Assembly: GCA_022712835.1 (NCBI GenBank)
Contig: JAFLJU010000222.1
Location: 1 to 5,761 of the forward strand
Direction: 5' to 3'
DNA from: Desulfobacteraceae bacterium
GTDB taxonomy: Bacteria > Desulfobacterota > Desulfobacteria > Desulfobacterales > Desulfobacteraceae
Length of the DNA stretch: 5,761 bases
Below the pieces are notes generated by a model. The model saw only the letters and a list, made by a program, of their open reading frames with translations. It was not told the DNA's origin and did no database searches. Position numbers and translations under genes: made by a program. Below, piece after piece: positions 244-5,761 of this stretch (the stretch's first letter is position 1; every line of letters starts with the position of its first letter).

Positions 244-716
244 ATTCTTTGGATTTATGGATATAACATTGTAACCAGGGAAGACCAGGACAAATTTGCG
301 GCAGCCTCCCAGGCCAAAGCTGTTGCAGCCAGAGATGCTGGGCTTTTTACGGAAATTGTTCCCACTCCTGCCTATAAATATGTAGCCCAGGCAGACGGCA
401 CCTATAAAAAAGAATCCTTTATTGTGGAACACGATGACGGTATCCGTGCCTCCACCGTTGAAGGTCTTGGAAAGCTTCGGACCGTGTTTTCAGCCGTGGG
501 TTCTGTGACCGCTGCCAACTCTTCCCAGACAACCGATGGAGCAGCTGCCACTATCATGGCGGTGCCATTGCCCTGGGTCATCCTCTGGGATGTACCGGTG
601 CAAAACTGACCGCCACCTGCCTTGCCAACCTCAAAGAGGTTAAAGGACGATACGGAATTGTTTCCATGTGTATCGGCGGCGGAATGGGTGCAGCAGCTAT
701 TTTTGAAAGATTCTAG
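244..716 (+). pseudogene. Thiolase (acetyl-CoA acetyltransferase) remnant with N-terminal and internal deletions
   Basis: Two out-of-frame pieces of one thiolase can be read. The first (frame of 271) begins after a stop at 241-243 and shows [40 protein letters not shown] and [15 protein letters not shown] up to about 557. The second (frame of 558) begins abruptly at [20 protein letters not shown] and ends with [18 protein letters not shown] and TAG at 714-716. In intact thiolases (about 390-440 aa) roughly 90-100 residues separate these blocks, so an internal segment is missing and the join changes frame. The whole N-terminal half, with the acyl-accepting Cys, is also absent. The catalytic His of GHPLG and the Cys of CIGGG remain. 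An intact enzyme would condense or cleave acyl-CoA in fatty-acid or aromatic degradation; this copy cannot. Residue identity is otherwise clean, which suggests fairly recent inactivation. Confidence 0.9.
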
Positions 717-802: not shown

Positions 803-1393
803 GACGTTAAACAGACAGAACAACTCCTTCGGTACCGGCGATCCATACGAAATTATAAGCGCAAGACGGTTGAAAAAGAAAAAATTGAAAAACGGATCCA
901 TATTGCTTCCCATGCACCTTCCGGCCATAACACCCAGCCGGTTCTCTGGCAGGTGATTTATGGAAAAGAAAAGGTGAACGAATTAAGTTCCCATGTCATC
1001 GATTGGATGAAAACGATGCTCAAGTCGAAACCGGAGCAGGCAAAGGCGATGCATCTTGATATGATGACGGCTGCCTGGGAAATGGGCACGGATGTCGTTT
1101 CCAGAAACGCTCCGGCTCTTGTTTTGGTGAACGGAGGAAGCAAAGATCCCTATGCCGATAGTGCCTGTAAAATAGCCATGACATTTTTGGATATTTCTGC
1201 GCCGTCCCTGGGGTTGGGATCATGCTGGAATGGATATTTCAACAGGGCTGCAATGTCATGGGAACCCCTTCAAAAAGCTCTGGGATTTTCAGAGGGTATC
1301 ACAAATTATGGAACAATGATGCTGGGATATCCAAAGTATTTATACCATAGAATGCCGAATAGAAATGCACCCAGCGTTAGATGGACGGATTAA
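803..1393 (+). pseudogene. Nitroreductase-family protein lacking N-terminus and start codon
   Basis: The frame is open from just after TGA at 800-802 to TAA at 1391-1393 (196 codons). It begins in the middle of a conserved block: LLRYRRSIRNYKRKTVEKEKI (FMN-phosphate binding RRSIRxY, about 824-880), then APSGHNTQP (914-940), ISAPSLGLGSCWNGYF in the middle, and MMLGYPKYLYHRMPNR near the end. These are nitroreductase-fold FMN oxidoreductase motifs. The closest style I know is the roughly 270-aa anaerobe type with an N-terminal 4Fe-4S ferredoxin domain; that domain is missing here. No ATG, GTG or TTG occurs in frame before GTG at 953. Starting there (146 aa) would remove the RRSIRxY and APSGHN motifs, so a working enzyme is unlikely. 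The sequence begins only a few bases after the preceding terminator's T-run, which looks like a deletion or rearrangement junction. Confidence 0.82.
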
Positions 1394-1474: not shown

Positions 1475-2401
1475 ACTTTCCAGCAAGGGGCAAATGAAAC
1501 ACTACCTCGGAAAATAGAAAGTGGCTTTCCATCTGATCCAAGGCAGTGGACAACTTCCCATATCAGGAGATACCTGATATCTAACGGCGATGATCTGCCC
1601 GGGAATTTTATCCTGGGAGAACAGTCCATCTTGCTTTTGTCTCGCCGGCCTTATGGGGTGACAAGGGAATCATATCCAACGGTGGCAGAGGATGTTATGA
1701 AAGGGGAAATTCCGGGGTCATCAGCCGGTGGAGAGCAGCCGAAGTTTACCGCGTTCAGTAGCCTTTACGAATCCCATGTCATTGTTAAGTTTTCCCCCAA
1801 AGATGACACACAAATCGCAAGGAGATGGCGTGATATTTTGATAACCGAGTATCACGCAGCGCAAATCATCGATGAGAATATATGTCCTGCTGCCGAGACC
1901 GGATTCCTCGAAGCAGGGGGACGCCTGTTTCTTGAAACACAGAGATTTGACCGTTTGGGTGTATCCGGTAGATACGCAATGATTTCACTGCAGGTAATTG
2001 ATGACGAATTTACTGGCTTCAGCCATAACTGGGCACGTGTGATGGGCACGTTGAGAGATCAGGGGCTGGTGCGTGAACAGGATGCTCATATTGCCAGGCA
2101 ATTATGGTATTTCAGCCAGCTAATTCATAATACCAACATGCATTTGGGTAACCTAAGCTTATTCATAGACGGGGATATTTTTAAACTATTGCCCTGTTAT
2201 GATATGTGTTCCATGGGCTTTGCTCTGAATAGTGGAGGTGAGGTCCGACCATTCTCTTTTGATGCATCGGGAATTCCGGATCCGGAGTTCAATAAAAAGG
2301 TCATCATTCGTTTGCAGCAACTGGCATATATCTTCTGGAAAAATGTCGCAGGAGATGATCACATATCTGCTTGTAACACCTTGTGGTCTTTTTGGTATTA
2401 A
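1475..2401 (+). pseudogene. YjjJ-type HipA-family kinase, N-terminally truncated, catalytic Asp replaced by Asn
   Basis: The frame is open from 1475 (after TGA at 1472-1474). Family similarity is clear from about 1520: GFPSDPRQW, RRYLISNGDDLPGNFILGE, then PGSSAGGEQPKFTAF (about 1715-1760; the activation/Ser loop region), VKFSPKDD, RRWRDILITEYHA, FLETQRFDRLG, NMHLGNLSLF and LLPCYDM (metal-binding Asp, about 2201). YjjJ-like proteins are about 400-450 aa with an N-terminal winged-helix region. That region is missing, and the first in-frame candidate start (TTG at 1631) lies inside the conserved domain, giving only 256 aa. At 2135-2137 the codon is AAC (Asn) where HipA-family kinases have the catalytic Asp (NTDMHxGN; E. 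coli HipA D309). The last residues after about 2353 come from foreign DNA matching the methylase gene of this window. No adjacent antitoxin is seen. Almost certainly inactive. Confidence 0.85.
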
Positions 2402-2421
2402 CTTTCAAAAAGGTGAAAAAG
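2353..2421. repeat. Two-piece copy of methylase gene sequence (28 bp + 42 bp) joined directly
   Basis: Bases 2353-2380 are identical to 4653-4680 (28 bp), and bases 2380-2421 are identical to 4886-4927 (42 bp), in the same order and orientation. The base C at 2380 fits either side of the join. The 206 bp between the two blocks in the methylase gene (about 4681-4886) are absent here. The source blocks encode the C-terminal GVTSRYVII and the FFTFLKVNTKKTT segments of the methyltransferase on the - strand. Here they form the 3' end of the kinase remnant and supply its stop codon. Identity ends sharply at both sides. Confidence 0.92.
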
Positions 2422-2436
2422 AAAAAACCTATTTAA

Positions 2437-2664
2437 AAATGTTGGGGGGGATCAGATGAGGTATGCGGGTGGTTGGAAGATAATCCAGAAAAGACATCAA
2501 AATCAATGCTGTTGAAACTTCAGGGAAAGTATCCTGGTGAATACCAAGAAAAAAGGAAGGATGCTCAAGGAAGGAGAATATTTTTCAATAGAAAATAGAC
2601 TTTTTATCAATTCTAATTTTAACGGGGCCAGCCCTCAATTTTTGTCATTTAATTTTAAATTAGC
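2437..2664 (+). pseudogene. Possible IS21-type transposase (IstA) remnant
   Basis: A + frame, open from a TAA at 2434-2436 to a TAG at 2662-2664, reads WLEDNPEKTSKSMLLKLQGK and then YPGEYQEKRKDAQGRR (about 2470-2577). This resembles the N-terminal segment of IS21-family IstA proteins, which often read LxxNPxxTAKxLFExLQxKYPGxFxxxQLRTLQRR. The QLRTLQRR part is only approximate here, as if scrambled or frame-shifted. There is no start codon with a ribosome site, the DDE catalytic domain is absent, and what follows (FFNRKIDFLSILIL) is not transposase-like. The AT-rich stretch at 2636-2667 has short similar TTTAATTTTAAATT-type runs that could be a decayed element end, but no inverted partner was found. 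This is a lead, not a firm identification. Confidence 0.35.
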
Positions 2665-2667
2665 CTT

Positions 2668-2709
2668 AAAAAGAACACATAACATCTGCGGCTTGCCCGT
2701 CAGCATGTT
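2668..2709 (-). terminator. Possible weak terminator downstream of hipA
   Basis: On the - strand just past the hipA stop, AACATGCTGACGGGC (2709-2695) pairs imperfectly with GCCGCAGATGTT (2692-2681) with two or three single-base bulges. TTCTTTTT (2675-2668) follows after a gap of about five bases. The bulges and the gap make it a weak candidate, but its position at the operon end is right. Confidence 0.33.
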
Positions 2710-2721
2710 ATTGTTTAGAAA

Positions 2722-3975
2722 CTAATCGAATTGTTTAAGTGTTCTATTTGCTCTTTTCTTGATATCGATGATGATATTTCCCACTAGGTTGTTCTGGGCA
2801 TGTCTATCAATGAAATTCGTATAAGTGACGTCAATTATATTAACCAATTTATTGCAAAACTCGGATAATCGTTTCTGGAGAACAGGATGGCTGATCTCTA
2901 TCTCCTCTCCAAATCTTTTCCAGTGTCTGTCCATAATCCATTCCAGTCTGTTTTCACCCCCTATTTTCATTGCCAGCTTTTGTGACAGATCTTCATATAT
3001 ATTCGTACACATCAAGTCATAAAAAGGAGCTAACCGAATTTGTCTTCCTTGATAAATAAAAGACAAATTTTTTGCGTGAGCGTCCATATTCCCTATCAAG
3101 TAATTAAAAAACACCCATTGCATCAGTTGCTGAAGATCTTTAATCGGATTGGCAGAATATGCCCGGACGGCATCAAAGCATGCTTGCAACCCAGGACCAC
3201 CATCTGCCTGATACTTCAACTCATGAGAAAGCCCTAAAGCCTGGCAAAAATCTTCCTGGTGAAGACGATTGAGCACATCCTTATCCAAAGTTCTGTCATA
3301 CCTTTTGATTAACAGAACTTCTTGAGTCCCTTTTCGAGCAATTGAAACAGGCGGAACATTCAGACCCAGATCGCCTGCAAGCATCATACAGAAATATTCA
3401 TTTTGAATGGAAGACTGAAAATGAGCCATCCCCGGTTTTAAAATATAGTTGCTTGGAGCGCCATTCAGCGGGATATGAAATACAGGATCTTTATAGAAAA
3501 GAGCCAGTTTTTCCTGTGCCCCTGCAAGTGATATACGAATCCCCTCTTGGCCTGCAAGCAGGGGGCGCCGGGGGATATGCATTATGATATTTTCTAATTG
3601 TTCATCAGATAATGAACGATACGTGTATTGATTTGGAGATTCTGGTCTTTCTGATTCAGGCTGAATTGTTATCGCTCCCGCACATTCTCCGCCAATACGC
3701 TTGAGAAACATAAAGTCATTTTTATTTGAAATTCCGAGCCGTTTTGCGATTAATTTTCTGACGGCAGATTCAGGTAACAAATTAGAGAAAAAAGATTTCA
3801 CTTTATCATCTGTGATAATTCCTTCTTGCAGCGGCAAAGAAATAGATAGTTGAAAAGCAATCGGTGAAATCAACCATTCCTTCGAATATTGGAATGAAAA
3901 TAAACGCCTGTCATTTATAGAGAGAGAACCGACTCTGATTTGTTTAAAAAAAACATTCAAAGTTTCCAAAATCAA
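2722..3975 (-). CDS. hipA: HipA toxin, serine/threonine-protein kinase
   Basis: The 417-aa product is collinear with E. coli HipA (440 aa). The N-terminal subdomain (about 1-105) is followed by RISLAGAQEKLALF (147-160; Ser149 matches the autophosphorylated Ser150 loop), YILKPG with Lys180 (ATP-binding lysine position), QNEYFCMMLAGDLGLNVP (191-208), LIKRYDR, QEDFCQALG, KYQADGGPG (254-262), GNMDAHAKNLSF (295-306; catalytic Asp298 and Asn303) and LAPFYDLM with metal-binding Asp320. All key residues are present, so the kinase is probably active. HipA kinases phosphorylate aminoacyl-tRNA synthetases (GltX in E. coli), which halts translation and promotes persistence; the target here is not known. 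The start is TTG at 3975-3973, overlapping the hipB stop as TTGA, with GGAG (3983-3980) four bases upstream. No ATG lies in frame before residue 88. Translation is therefore likely coupled to hipB. The gene is visibly more AT-rich than the methylase next door. Confidence 0.95.
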   Translation of the reverse strand: MILETLNVFFKQIRVGSLSINDRRLFSFQYSKEWLISPIAFQLSISLPLQEGIITDDKVKSFFSNLLPESAVRKLIAKRLGISNKNDFMFLKRIGGECAGAITIQPESERPESPNQYTYRSLSDEQLENIIMHIPRRPLLAGQEGIRISLAGAQEKLALFYKDPVFHIPLNGAPSNYILKPGMAHFQSSIQNEYFCMMLAGDLGLNVPPVSIARKGTQEVLLIKRYDRTLDKDVLNRLHQEDFCQALGLSHELKYQADGGPGLQACFDAVRAYSANPIKDLQQLMQWVFFNYLIGNMDAHAKNLSFIYQGRQIRLAPFYDLMCTNIYEDLSQKLAMKIGGENRLEWIMDRHWKRFGEEIEISHPVLQKRLSEFCNKLVNIIDVTYTNFIDRHAQNNLVGNIIIDIKKRANRTLKQFD

Positions 3976-4214
3976 TTATCTCCACGTTTAATGAGATGGA
4001 GTTCAAGGCCAAGACTGTTCAACAATTCAAAGACTTTCCCAACTTGAGCAGTCTCTTTACCTTTTTCAAGTTCTATAATAAATTTTCGGCCGACATCAGC
4101 AAACTCAGAAATCTCTTTTTGCGTCAACTTGAGATTTTTACGTTCTTTAAGAAGGTATAGTCCTAATTCTTTTGGGTTATTAATTTTTGACGAAGATTTC
4201 AATACCTCTCCCAT
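3972..4214 (-). CDS. hipB: HipB antitoxin, Cro/C1-type DNA-binding protein
   Basis: An 80-aa protein with one helix-turn-helix domain: LKLTQKEISEFADVGRKFI (about 28-46) followed by ELEKGKETAQVGKVFELLNS and LGLELHL (residues 48-74). This is the standard HipB pattern, in which the C-terminal beta strand LGLELHL forms the dimer interface. HipB would bind HipA in the cytoplasm, hold it inactive and repress the operon through the dyads immediately upstream. It precedes hipA with a 4-nt overlap. The start is uncertain. ATG at 4214-4212 has no ribosome site in front of it (the upstream sequence is T-rich). A strong GGGAGAGG lies at 4212-4205, inside the first codons, and could serve the TTG at codon 5 (4202-4200), although with only 2 bases of spacing. 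Both starts leave the helix-turn-helix intact. The usual HipB length is 70-100 aa, so the gene is complete. Confidence 0.92.
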   Translation of the reverse strand: MGEVLKSSSKINNPKELGLYLLKERKNLKLTQKEISEFADVGRKFIIELEKGKETAQVGKVFELLNSLGLELHLIKRGDN

Positions 4215-4217
4215 ATA

Positions 4218-4241
4218 AAAAGATTTCGATCAGATACTTTT
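4218..4241. promoter_or_regulatory. hipBA operator O1 (proximal, degenerate dyad)
   Basis: This 24-bp site has the layout AAAAGA-N3-CGATCA-N3-ACTTTT, one mismatch in an outer arm and one in the core relative to the two distal copies. It lies directly before the hipB ATG and covers the candidate -10 box and start of transcription, so occupancy would block RNA polymerase. The degeneracy suggests weaker binding than O2 and O3. Confidence 0.7.
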
Positions 4242-4265
4242 AGCAGATTTACTAGCAAAGCGCAA
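4237..4265 (-). promoter_or_regulatory. Candidate hipBA promoter
   Basis: On the - strand, TTGCGC (4265-4260) and TAAAAG (4242-4237) are separated by exactly 17 bp and lie between operators O1 and O2. The -35 and -10 matches are only partial (3/6 and 4/6), but the position fits a leader of about 20 bases before the hipB ATG. Autoregulated toxin-antitoxin promoters often have this overlap with operators. Confidence 0.4.
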
Positions 4266-4267
4266 CG

Positions 4268-4291
4268 AAAAGTTTCCGATCGAGCACTTTT
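4268..4291. promoter_or_regulatory. hipBA operator O2
   Basis: A 24-bp dyad with AAAAGT (4268-4273), the self-complementary core CGATCG (4277-4282) and ACTTTT (4286-4291), with 3-bp spacers TTC and AGC. Its arms and core are identical to O3. It starts 50 bp from O1 and lies next to the candidate -35 box. It is probably bound by a HipB dimer. Confidence 0.8.
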
Positions 4292-4316
4292 CATGTTTTT
4301 TATTGAAATTTCCCGG

Positions 4317-4340
4317 AAAAGTAACCGATCGAAAACTTTT
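4317..4340. promoter_or_regulatory. hipBA operator O3 (distal)
   Basis: A 24-bp dyad with AAAAGT (4317-4322), CGATCG (4326-4331) and ACTTTT (4335-4340), with 3-bp spacers AAC and AAA. Arms and core are identical to O2 and it starts 49 bp away from it. It also overlaps a possible divergent promoter (TACAAT at 4351-4356), so it may control transcription in both directions. Confidence 0.8.
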
Positions 4341-4537
4341 AACCTGTGTGTACAATATCGGGGAAGGATCAGTCTTCCTTCGGACGAACAAGTAGAATTT
4401 GGATGGTGACAATAATGTTTAGAACCAAAATGAACATTGAAAATAACCGGATGCCAAAAGTCGCAGAGCTAAGCGGCACTGCTTTCAATCCCCAATTTTT
4501 GTAAACAATGAAAAAACCACATACCGTCATGTGTCAT
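4341..4537. other. Intergenic stretch with possible divergent promoter and doubtful small ORF
   Basis: On the + strand, TACAAT (4351-4356) is a good -10 match with a weak TCGAAA (4329-4334) 16 bp upstream inside O3. A small hairpin GAAGGA/TCCTTC with a 7-base loop sits at 4363-4381. A + strand ORF from ATG at 4403 (33 codons) or ATG at 4415 (29 codons) ends with TAA at 4502-4504 and reads MFRTKMNIENNRMPKVAELS near its start. It has no clear ribosome site and no family I recognise, so I do not call it a gene. Another short hairpin (CACAT/ATGTG) lies near 4518-4533. Confidence 0.3.
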
Positions 4538-4660
4538 TCAGCATTTATTTAGAAGTTCCATTGTCTCTTTTTGAGAAATATTCTTAACCGGTTTGATCCG
4601 GTTCAGTCGAATACCTGGCTTAGCTTTAGCGTGCAATTCTAATCTTGTTTTAAGATGATC
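4538..4660 (-). pseudogene. Unidentified coding tail, no start codon
   Basis: Downstream of the methylase, a different - strand frame reads DHLKTRLELHAKAKPG, then IRLNRIKPVKNISQ and KETMELLNKC, ending in TGA at 4540-4538. The composition (Lys/Leu-rich, amphipathic, few rare residues) looks like the C-terminus of a real protein rather than random sequence. It has no ATG before the methylase stop and overlaps the last methylase codons by about 20 bases. I do not recognise the family. It may be what is left of a neighbouring gene after deletion, or a former extension of the methylase frame. AACCGG/CCGGTT (4586-4603) inside it forms a 6-bp hairpin without a T-run, so no terminator is called. Confidence 0.35.
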
Positions 4661-5761
4661 ACATATCTGCTTGTAACACCCAGTATCCTTTTTTTCTGCA
4701 TTGCTGAAACAACCCCTGCACTAAAACGCTGGGAAGACATGGGGGCCTGGATGATGTGGGTGGGGTACCATCCGGTCTTTTTAAGGATATTAAGATACTC
4801 GTCAATCATGATTGCGCCTTTGCCGGTTTCCTCACTGGCAGGTTTGCCCTGGAAATCCCGCCAGTCAGCATTGATAAAAGCAAATCTTGTGGTCTTTTTG
4901 GTATTAACTTTCAAAAAGGTGAAAAAGGCTTTGAGGAATTCAAGATATTCTTTTCTCGGAAGACCTGAAATACTTTTTTTATCATAGTCGTCAGCTTTTT
5001 TGTCAAAATATGGCGGATCAAAGATGACAAGATCAGCCTTACCCTTTGAGCTTACCGGCCAGGATAACCCTTTGCCTGATGAAAGAGTCCATGTGTGGGT
5101 TTCGATTTCAGGACGGGTACCCTGCCTGTCCTCCATATCAAAGGCCCAGCACTTGCGGCCTAAAGCCAGACAGGTATCAGGAGTCACACCGCCTCCTGCC
5201 ATGGGATCAAGAATCAGGTCATTTTGCTTTGAGAAATAAAAAAGAATGTGGGCAATCAATTGAGCGGGTATCCTGCCGGGCCATTCATCACCGAATCTTT
5301 TATCACAGGCATTGAATTCCCATTGATCCCAGGTTCTTAAACCCCAGCCAAGTTCTTTAAATCTGTTACAGTCATCTTTGCCTTCCAGGGCCAGGGACCA
5401 TACCATAGACTCTGTCCAGCCATGCTTTTGCGCCACCTGTGAAACTGTAAATCCCTGGGACAAATCTGCATTTAGAAGTTTCGGCAGTGTTGCCATTTTT
5501 TCTAAATGGTTATGAATTGTCCTCTGAATCATCCTCAATCGCCCGGCAATCCTGTCCTGGGGGATACCAAGACGGTTCATGCGAAATATCTTCAGGTCTT
5601 TGTCCTCCTGATCCACAGCCCGAAGATCGGCTATATAAGAATCCACCGTTCGTCTTGCCCTTCCAATGGCCTTTCCGATATCCACGGAGCTTAAGGCAGT
5701 GTTCCTGGTATATGCTCTTCTGGCAGTATCCCTTGCCTCATCTTCCGTCAACTGCCTCGGG
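4639..5761 (-). CDS. ParB-type DNA methyltransferase (N-terminus beyond right edge)
   Basis: At least 370 residues are present, and the frame stays open to the right edge (P-R-Q precede the TTG at 5751-5749), so the N-terminus is outside the window. Counting from that TTG: RQLTEDEARDTARRAYTR leads into a first helix-turn-helix-like segment (SSVDIGKAIGRARRTVDSYI, 21-40). A second follows (IPQDRIAGRLRMIQRTIHNHL, 63-83) and possibly a third (FTVSQVAQKHGWTESMVW, 101-118). The methylase domain has IPAQLIAHILFYFS, motif I LDPMAGGGVTPDTC (181-194), ALGRKCWAFDMED, and motif IV VIFDPPYFDK (242-251; catalytic DPPY 245-248), ending in GVTSRYVIILKQD. Together these match ParB/RepB-like proteins fused to an N6-adenine or N4-cytosine DNA methylase, usually found on phages and islands. 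No restriction enzyme gene lies beside it. Specificity cannot be read from the sequence. It appears intact where visible. Confidence 0.88.
   Translation of the reverse strand, partial: PRQLTEDEARDTARRAYTRNTALSSVDIGKAIGRARRTVDSYIADLRAVDQEDKDLKIFRMNRLGIPQDRIAGRLRMIQRTIHNHLEKMATLPKLLNADLSQGFTVSQVAQKHGWTESMVWSLALEGKDDCNRFKELGWGLRTWDQWEFNACDKRFGDEWPGRIPAQLIAHILFYFSKQNDLILDPMAGGGVTPDTCLALGRKCWAFDMEDRQGTRPEIETHTWTLSSGKGLSWPVSSKGKADLVIFDPPYFDKKADDYDKKSISGLPRKEYLEFLKAFFTFLKVNTKKTTRFAFINADWRDFQGKPASEETGKGAIMIDEYLNILKKTGWYPTHIIQAPMSSQRFSAGVVSAMQKKRILGVTSRYVIILKQD

Follow-up and report, generated by a model that had tools for sequence, protein, structure and literature searches.

A 69-bp methylase fragment at the end of a broken kinase gene in a Desulfobacteraceae contig is probably a remnant of a recently duplicated gene

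The stretch of DNA analysed here (the window; 5,761 nucleotides from a Desulfobacteraceae bacterium) contains a 69-bp segment in which two exact pieces of a methylase gene from the same window are joined to each other and to the truncated end of a HipA-family kinase. The observation is real, and the 69 bp are probably the remnant of a recently duplicated methylase copy that was reduced by three joins. The deletions behind it are most likely ordinary ones, of a type common in related sulfate-reducing bacteria; what is unusual about the fragment is how fresh it is and how greatly its parent gene has multiplied.

The source gene, an N6_N4_Mtase methylase, occupies 4639-5760 on the minus strand, and its N-terminus (ParB_N in relatives) lies beyond the window. 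The first block of the fragment (2353-2380, minus strand) equals methylase positions 4653-4680 at 28 of 28 bases, and thus places the 3' end of the methylase antisense to the kinase, while the second (2380-2421, minus strand) equals 4886-4927 at 42 of 42 bases; both source segments are on the minus strand. Base 2380 is common to the two blocks, and the 69 bp correspond to 275 bp in the methylase, for a net loss of 206 bp (the segment missing between the blocks, 4681-4885 on the minus strand, is 205 bp, with one C common to both). The blocks retain the order and strand they have in the methylase gene. Exact repeat comparison therefore upholds the coordinates, the complete identity, the absent 206 bp and the retained order and orientation reported in an initial annotation of this DNA. 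Direct repeats never exceeded 15 bases when the window was shuffled 200 times (mononucleotide shuffles), so that matches of 28 and 42 bases are not due to chance. Identity at 69 of 69 positions has a probability of 0.25 at 2% divergence and of 0.03 at 5%; the two copies can therefore have diverged by no more than a few percent, and a duplication would be recent. The perfect match over 69 bp likewise bears out the methylase as the source and the recent date, both of which had been proposed.

The kinase to which this fragment is joined is a remnant of a HipA-family (YjjJ-type) protein (1475-2368, plus strand; NF007297, HipA_C) with relatives at loci L004-L008 and in proteins P0121, P0122 and P0124-P0126. 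It lacks the N-terminal ~130 residues and the C-terminal tail and is native to about position 2368; its match to NF007297 scores 332 bits, below the cut-off of 401, and spans 133-422 of the 446 model positions. Among the full-length kinases found, the two with the highest scores, P0121 (91%) and P0122 (85%), read GDDHIS-NEFRAFLNRGNPVASL, close intact relatives read GDDHIS-NEFRAF, and kinase relatives continue for roughly 20 residues past the D-D/E-H/R-I-S motif. The window protein ends instead in GDDHIS-ACNTLWSFWY-stop, and among seven proteins examined, out of at least 120 hits listed, this chimeric end occurs only in the window's own (P0123), the other six having the native tail. The reading frame of the remnant spans 1475-2401 and ends in a TAA (2399-2401) that falls within the 42-bp block; the methylase fragment does supply the stop codon, as had been suggested.

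Bases 2353-2368 (AGATGATCACATATCT, plus strand) fit the native kinase yet also equal methylase bases. The kinase and methylase thus have 8 to 16 bases in common at their join, 8 of which are backed by the closest kinase DNA compared (L004, identical to the window over 2344-2360) and up to 16 by protein. Since close intact relatives indicate that the kinase is native to 2368, the left junction falls inside these common bases, and the crossover would lie somewhere within 2353-2368; the breakpoint at 2352/2353 assigned initially does not hold, given the native GDDHIS of P0121 and P0122. The methylase-only part of the stretch is 2369-2421 (53 bp). The longest other same-strand word common to kinase positions 1475-2352 and the methylase is 11 bases, so that the kinase join uses the longest common word only if more than 11 of its 16 bases are native. 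The middle join at 2380 has one exact base in common. When the 400-bp tails of five relatives (L004-L008) were compared with the whole window, the kinase tail was not found past 2421, the best match being 14 bp at 3939-3952 (E 0.023). Because the kinase does not resume after 2421, the join is best read as a fusion in which the kinase lost its tail; of the proposal that an insertion had replaced the C-terminus, the loss of the C-terminus stands and the insertion does not. The product is a broken kinase frame, and the fragment has no proposed function.

Downstream of the junction, none of the matches listed reaches into the 33-bp segment 2422-2454, which is followed by a further fragment (2455-2544, plus strand) with 78% identity to four places in genome G066, there within an open frame that we take to be transposase-like. 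Elsewhere in the window a thiolase pseudogene (266-716, plus strand) consists of two collinear pieces (266-560 and 555-716) from which 253 bp are missing; these are present between the pieces in all 19 loci that hold both (20 examined), and the exact repeat at the join is only 2-4 bases. The thiolase carries the same type of scar as the methylase fragment, in the same window. A nitroreductase-like open frame (803-1393, plus strand), of which 803-1390 weakly match positions 9-184 of 205 of the BluB model, is not clearly truncated.

A HipBA toxin-antitoxin unit (2681-4342, minus strand; kinase 2722-3975, HTH 3972-4214) is 97% identical to G001:C660. Aligned with 8947-10607 of L059 from G001, it has sharp ends and unlike flanks on both sides, and it probably moved as a unit. 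Short stretches at its ends (2671-2709 and 4339-4374) are also found elsewhere in G001 (L002, L003), and a small hairpin is possible at 2671-2709. G001 is the nearest of the genomes compared and has in common with the window this unit and two stretches of fewer than 40 bases. No similar phage record was found for the window and no RNA family was found within it, and the plasmid records matching it are three from Vibrio, each with one 50-bp thiolase match.

Members of the methylase family are about 475-480 residues long and combine ParB_N, HTH and N6_N4_Mtase parts. Matches to the window's methylase protein were listed in 45 of 145 related genomes, more than 10 apiece in 12 of these, and many matches were incomplete; in G033, 8 of the 15 methylase matches listed span at least 345 of 373 residues. 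With a 777-bp methylase query, 2-48 DNA matches per genome were obtained among the matches listed in 14 genomes picked for having the gene, against 0-2 matches in the same genomes for a 777-bp oxidoreductase query, a single-copy control that shows multiplicity and not mobility. At one locus (G081:C197, 1289-1849) the control oxidoreductase itself lacks about 200 bp internally, and two matches there overlap by 13 bases. Many full copies together with fragments are seen in G033, G041, G024, G060, G052 and other genomes, and the six loci named in genome_contigs are from Desulfobacula and Desulfotignum MAGs. Neighbours vary between copies and include a type III restriction gene, an Mrr-type nuclease, housekeeping genes and others. 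With the patterns used, viral_contigs contained no relative of the methylase.

Several loci show how closely copies can lie. At L166 a 256-bp piece of the methylase 3' end lies about 5 kb from a full copy on the same strand (93%), and at L167 a divergent subfamily has two full copies that are 97% alike and lie about 6.4 kb apart. A near-identical methylase, P0097 (2 differences in 281 residues before the tail), on a contig of 1,628 bases, is evidence of another allele or copy in some data set; the last seven residues of P0097, LDRKSVV, are what an Illumina adapter would encode. Full copies at L045, L051 and L054 lie between direct repeats of about 57 bp. Repeats spaced ~72 bp apart, resembling a CRISPR array, adjoin a full copy at L060 (5567-6538), and L168 of G033 carries six long palindromic repeats about 2-3 kb apart (715-805, 3409-3499, 6023-6113, 7797-7887, 10224-10314 and 13160-13250). 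At L037 of G124 an integron-type integrase frame (127-993) precedes a methylase (1195-2613) by about 200 bp. By title and abstract, none of the papers listed concerns this methylase family in these bacteria, but a study of polyvalent proteins describing 31 uses of ParB (PMC5512222) may bear on the domain architecture of the family.

Incomplete copies in relatives resemble the window fragment. Exceptions aside, they are cut to two to four pieces that keep the order and strand of the parent, and their pieces share about 68-98% identity with the full copies to which they were compared. A filter that kept same-strand joins losing 30 bp or more and having no more than 4 unmatched bases, and so left out longer unmatched stretches, gave 61 rows, some of them the same place counted twice, and these represent 33 distinct internally deleted joins by one merging rule and 31 by another; as the loci were chosen for incomplete methylase matches, the counts do not give a rate. 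At the joins the longest exact repeat averages 4.5 bases, compared with 2.06 along the same genes, and 12 of 33 joins are at or below 0.05 (Fisher p about 1e-8). Exact runs as short as the single base of the window's middle join occur at 2 of the 33. The join that the initial annotation had treated as exceptional therefore has 31-33 distinct collinear counterparts in relatives, and the possible involvement of an internally deleted methylase copy, which it had suggested, gains from the frequency of such copies among the loci examined from relatives.

Comparison of closely similar loci also shows deletions. Relative to the orthologous G041 locus (about 99% alike), G033 is without 183 bp at a 10-base repeat, TACTGCCAGG, and a G024 copy has the longer form at this site, as in G041. 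Among loci 90-99% alike, repeats of 13, 12, 9 and 8 bases accompany losses of 150, 125, 202 and 555 bp, respectively, and 10-base repeats are found at deletions of 183, 242, 301 and 368 bp, with several other deletions at repeats of only 1-4 bases. Corresponding scars occur in separate genomes (L062/L067, L102/L103, L110/L111 and L115/L116). Deletion alone does not explain every remnant, as L079 carries a piece in duplicate and L069, L070 and L171 have a nearby piece on the other strand.

The blocks, the common word at the kinase join and the scars of this type that relatives and the window's thiolase carry are direct observations, from which we infer the duplication, an order of events and a RecA-independent route by slippage or single-strand annealing. 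A second methylase copy would have arisen recently next to the kinase, with the orientation of the first; close copies lying near one another are also seen in relatives (L166, L167). The most economical route to the identity, order, orientation and distance of the blocks would be a local duplication spanning roughly 2422-4927 and then two deletions. One deletion would have fused the kinase 3' end to the methylase 3' end at the 8-16-base common word, and another would have removed 206 bp inside the second copy. The third join, 2421/2422, would either have removed the rest or represent the far end of the duplicated segment. Deletion by replication slippage or single-strand annealing is established biology, and with Ku in only 1 of 145 relatives these are the likely routes, while non-homologous end joining, also considered, is unlikely for the same reason. 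Several findings speak against decay of a duplicate. Remnant pieces in relatives have about 68-98% identity, against 69 of 69 positions here; the window keeps no larger part of a second copy; the bases in common number 1 at the middle join, 2-4 at the thiolase join and 1-4 at several of the relatives' deletions; and if only 8 bases of the kinase join are native, that word is shorter than the 11-base maximum found elsewhere. Random deletions also leave unexplained a recurrent edge 80 bp past one methylase copy (L046).

In the main rival reading, a single replication accident would have produced the whole stretch: having left the kinase at the common word, synthesis would have taken 28 bp from the methylase 2.3 kb ahead, skipped 206 bp, taken a further 42 bp and returned at 2422. 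Such template switching would account for the perfect identity, the short distance, the same strand, the 8-16 common bases at entry with 1 at the jump, and all three joins in one event, and the middle join fits it about as well as it fits deletion. We nevertheless consider it unlikely, as the kinase does not resume, so that loss of its tail would have to be part of the same event, and as deletions account for the collinear joins in the 31-33 other cases. Of the recent template switching put forward in the initial annotation, the recency thus stands, and the switching is possible yet not needed. The same annotation had allowed for an artefact, here an assembly or library error (a chimeric molecule) in a short contig. 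The window is one whole contig of 5,761 bases, of which P0123 is the kinase fragment; neither genome_contigs nor viral_contigs contains the 24-base junction word in exact form; a search of the related genomes for the junction, as the annotation had proposed, did not recover it in any of 145 relatives (36-base word, up to 3 mismatches); and the 1,628-base contig of the near-identical methylase ends in adapter-like residues. Assembly words are usually 21 bases or more, and collapse by the assembler is unlikely because the exact overlaps at the kinase and middle joins, at most 16 and 1, are shorter, which leaves a chimeric molecule as the possible form of error. As the same type of scar is present in G033, whose assembly comprises about five contigs, and recurs at matching positions in separate genomes, an artefact seems quite improbable.

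Mobility of the gene itself would offer another origin, with the fragment as the minimal copy of a mobile, non-autonomous methylase derivative or cassette. The same shortened form (aa 11-47/184-227/399-480) recurs in G060, G024, G087 and G033, and L068 and L070 have only about 510 bp in common (L069 and L070 have 729 bp in common, but both reach contig ends). The direct repeats of about 57 bp at some full copies, integron integrases over the cut-off in 18 of 30 genomes and the G124 integrase frame about 200 bp before a methylase would also suit a mobile unit, as would an edge at query position 1730/1731 that is shared by 17 of the matches listed and would define the end of a unit. In the comparison of the G033 copy L046 with 12 genomes, at least 12 matches begin and at least 5 end at this position, and the edge (5229 in L046), 80 bp past the methylase stop, resembles in its sharpness the end of a moving unit. 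Lone 53-87-bp copies begin at this edge in L200-L205 and L210, from several genomes. The window fragment, however, stops short of the edge, and its outer ends lie within the methylase frame; remnant ends vary, though many lie near the gene's 3' end; breakpoints scatter; a strict attC consensus scan gave no site in the window and one doubtful site (L167) in 12 loci; and the repeats around the L049 copy are parts of a multicopy frame of 95-97 aa. A mobile derivative as the origin of the fragment is accordingly very hard to credit. A broader possibility, that an active and undescribed process multiplies and scatters whole and partial ParB-type methylase copies with a defined end, the 69-bp scrap being its fresh product and not a decayed remnant, strikes us as rather doubtful.

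Other readings were considered and set aside. An integron cassette finds no support in the strict attC scan of the window, despite the integrases in relatives, and retro-type copying with a fixed 3' end does not agree with the variable ends of the remnants. For a phage origin there was neither a similar phage record nor, by the patterns used, a methylase relative in viral_contigs. Intron-like or splice-like removal seems less likely given the scatter of breakpoints, of which 4 of 62 fall within 15 nt of the position equivalent to the window's 1196 (expected 1.4) and 1 of 62 near 1402. The ~290-bp repeats that might have formed a cassette array belong to the 95-97-aa frame, one of whose three copies is weakly DUF3427-like (E 0.0067, below the cut-off).

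Read as a decayed duplicate, the fragment is a fresh example of the erosion of a duplicated gene, with an identical parent available for comparison at the joins. Since a single methylase family has left so many collinear remnants in individual genomes, these sulfate reducers would provide a good natural data set for deletion mechanisms without Ku, and one may ask for what reason, and by what means, the gene has multiplied to such an extent.

Deletion-biased decay of bacterial pseudogenes and microhomology-mediated template switching are both established subjects (PMC2916853, PMC5447742, PMC2621351). As in pseudogene decay by short-repeat deletion, the remnants described here show collinear pieces, join repeats above chance, adjoining gene stumps and rare Ku; they differ in that one gene family supplies many remnants per genome, in that the window scrap is still 100% identical to its neighbour and in the single common base at the middle join. 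The window has in common with FoSTeS/MMBIR a short common word at entry, a nearby same-strand donor and several joins, whereas the recipient gene does not resume here and a single event is not required. Finally, the source family has the domain content of methyltransferases with ParB_N and N6_N4_Mtase parts, and departs from them in that Desulfobacula- and Desulfotignum-like bacteria carry unusually many copies and remnants of it, with varying neighbours.
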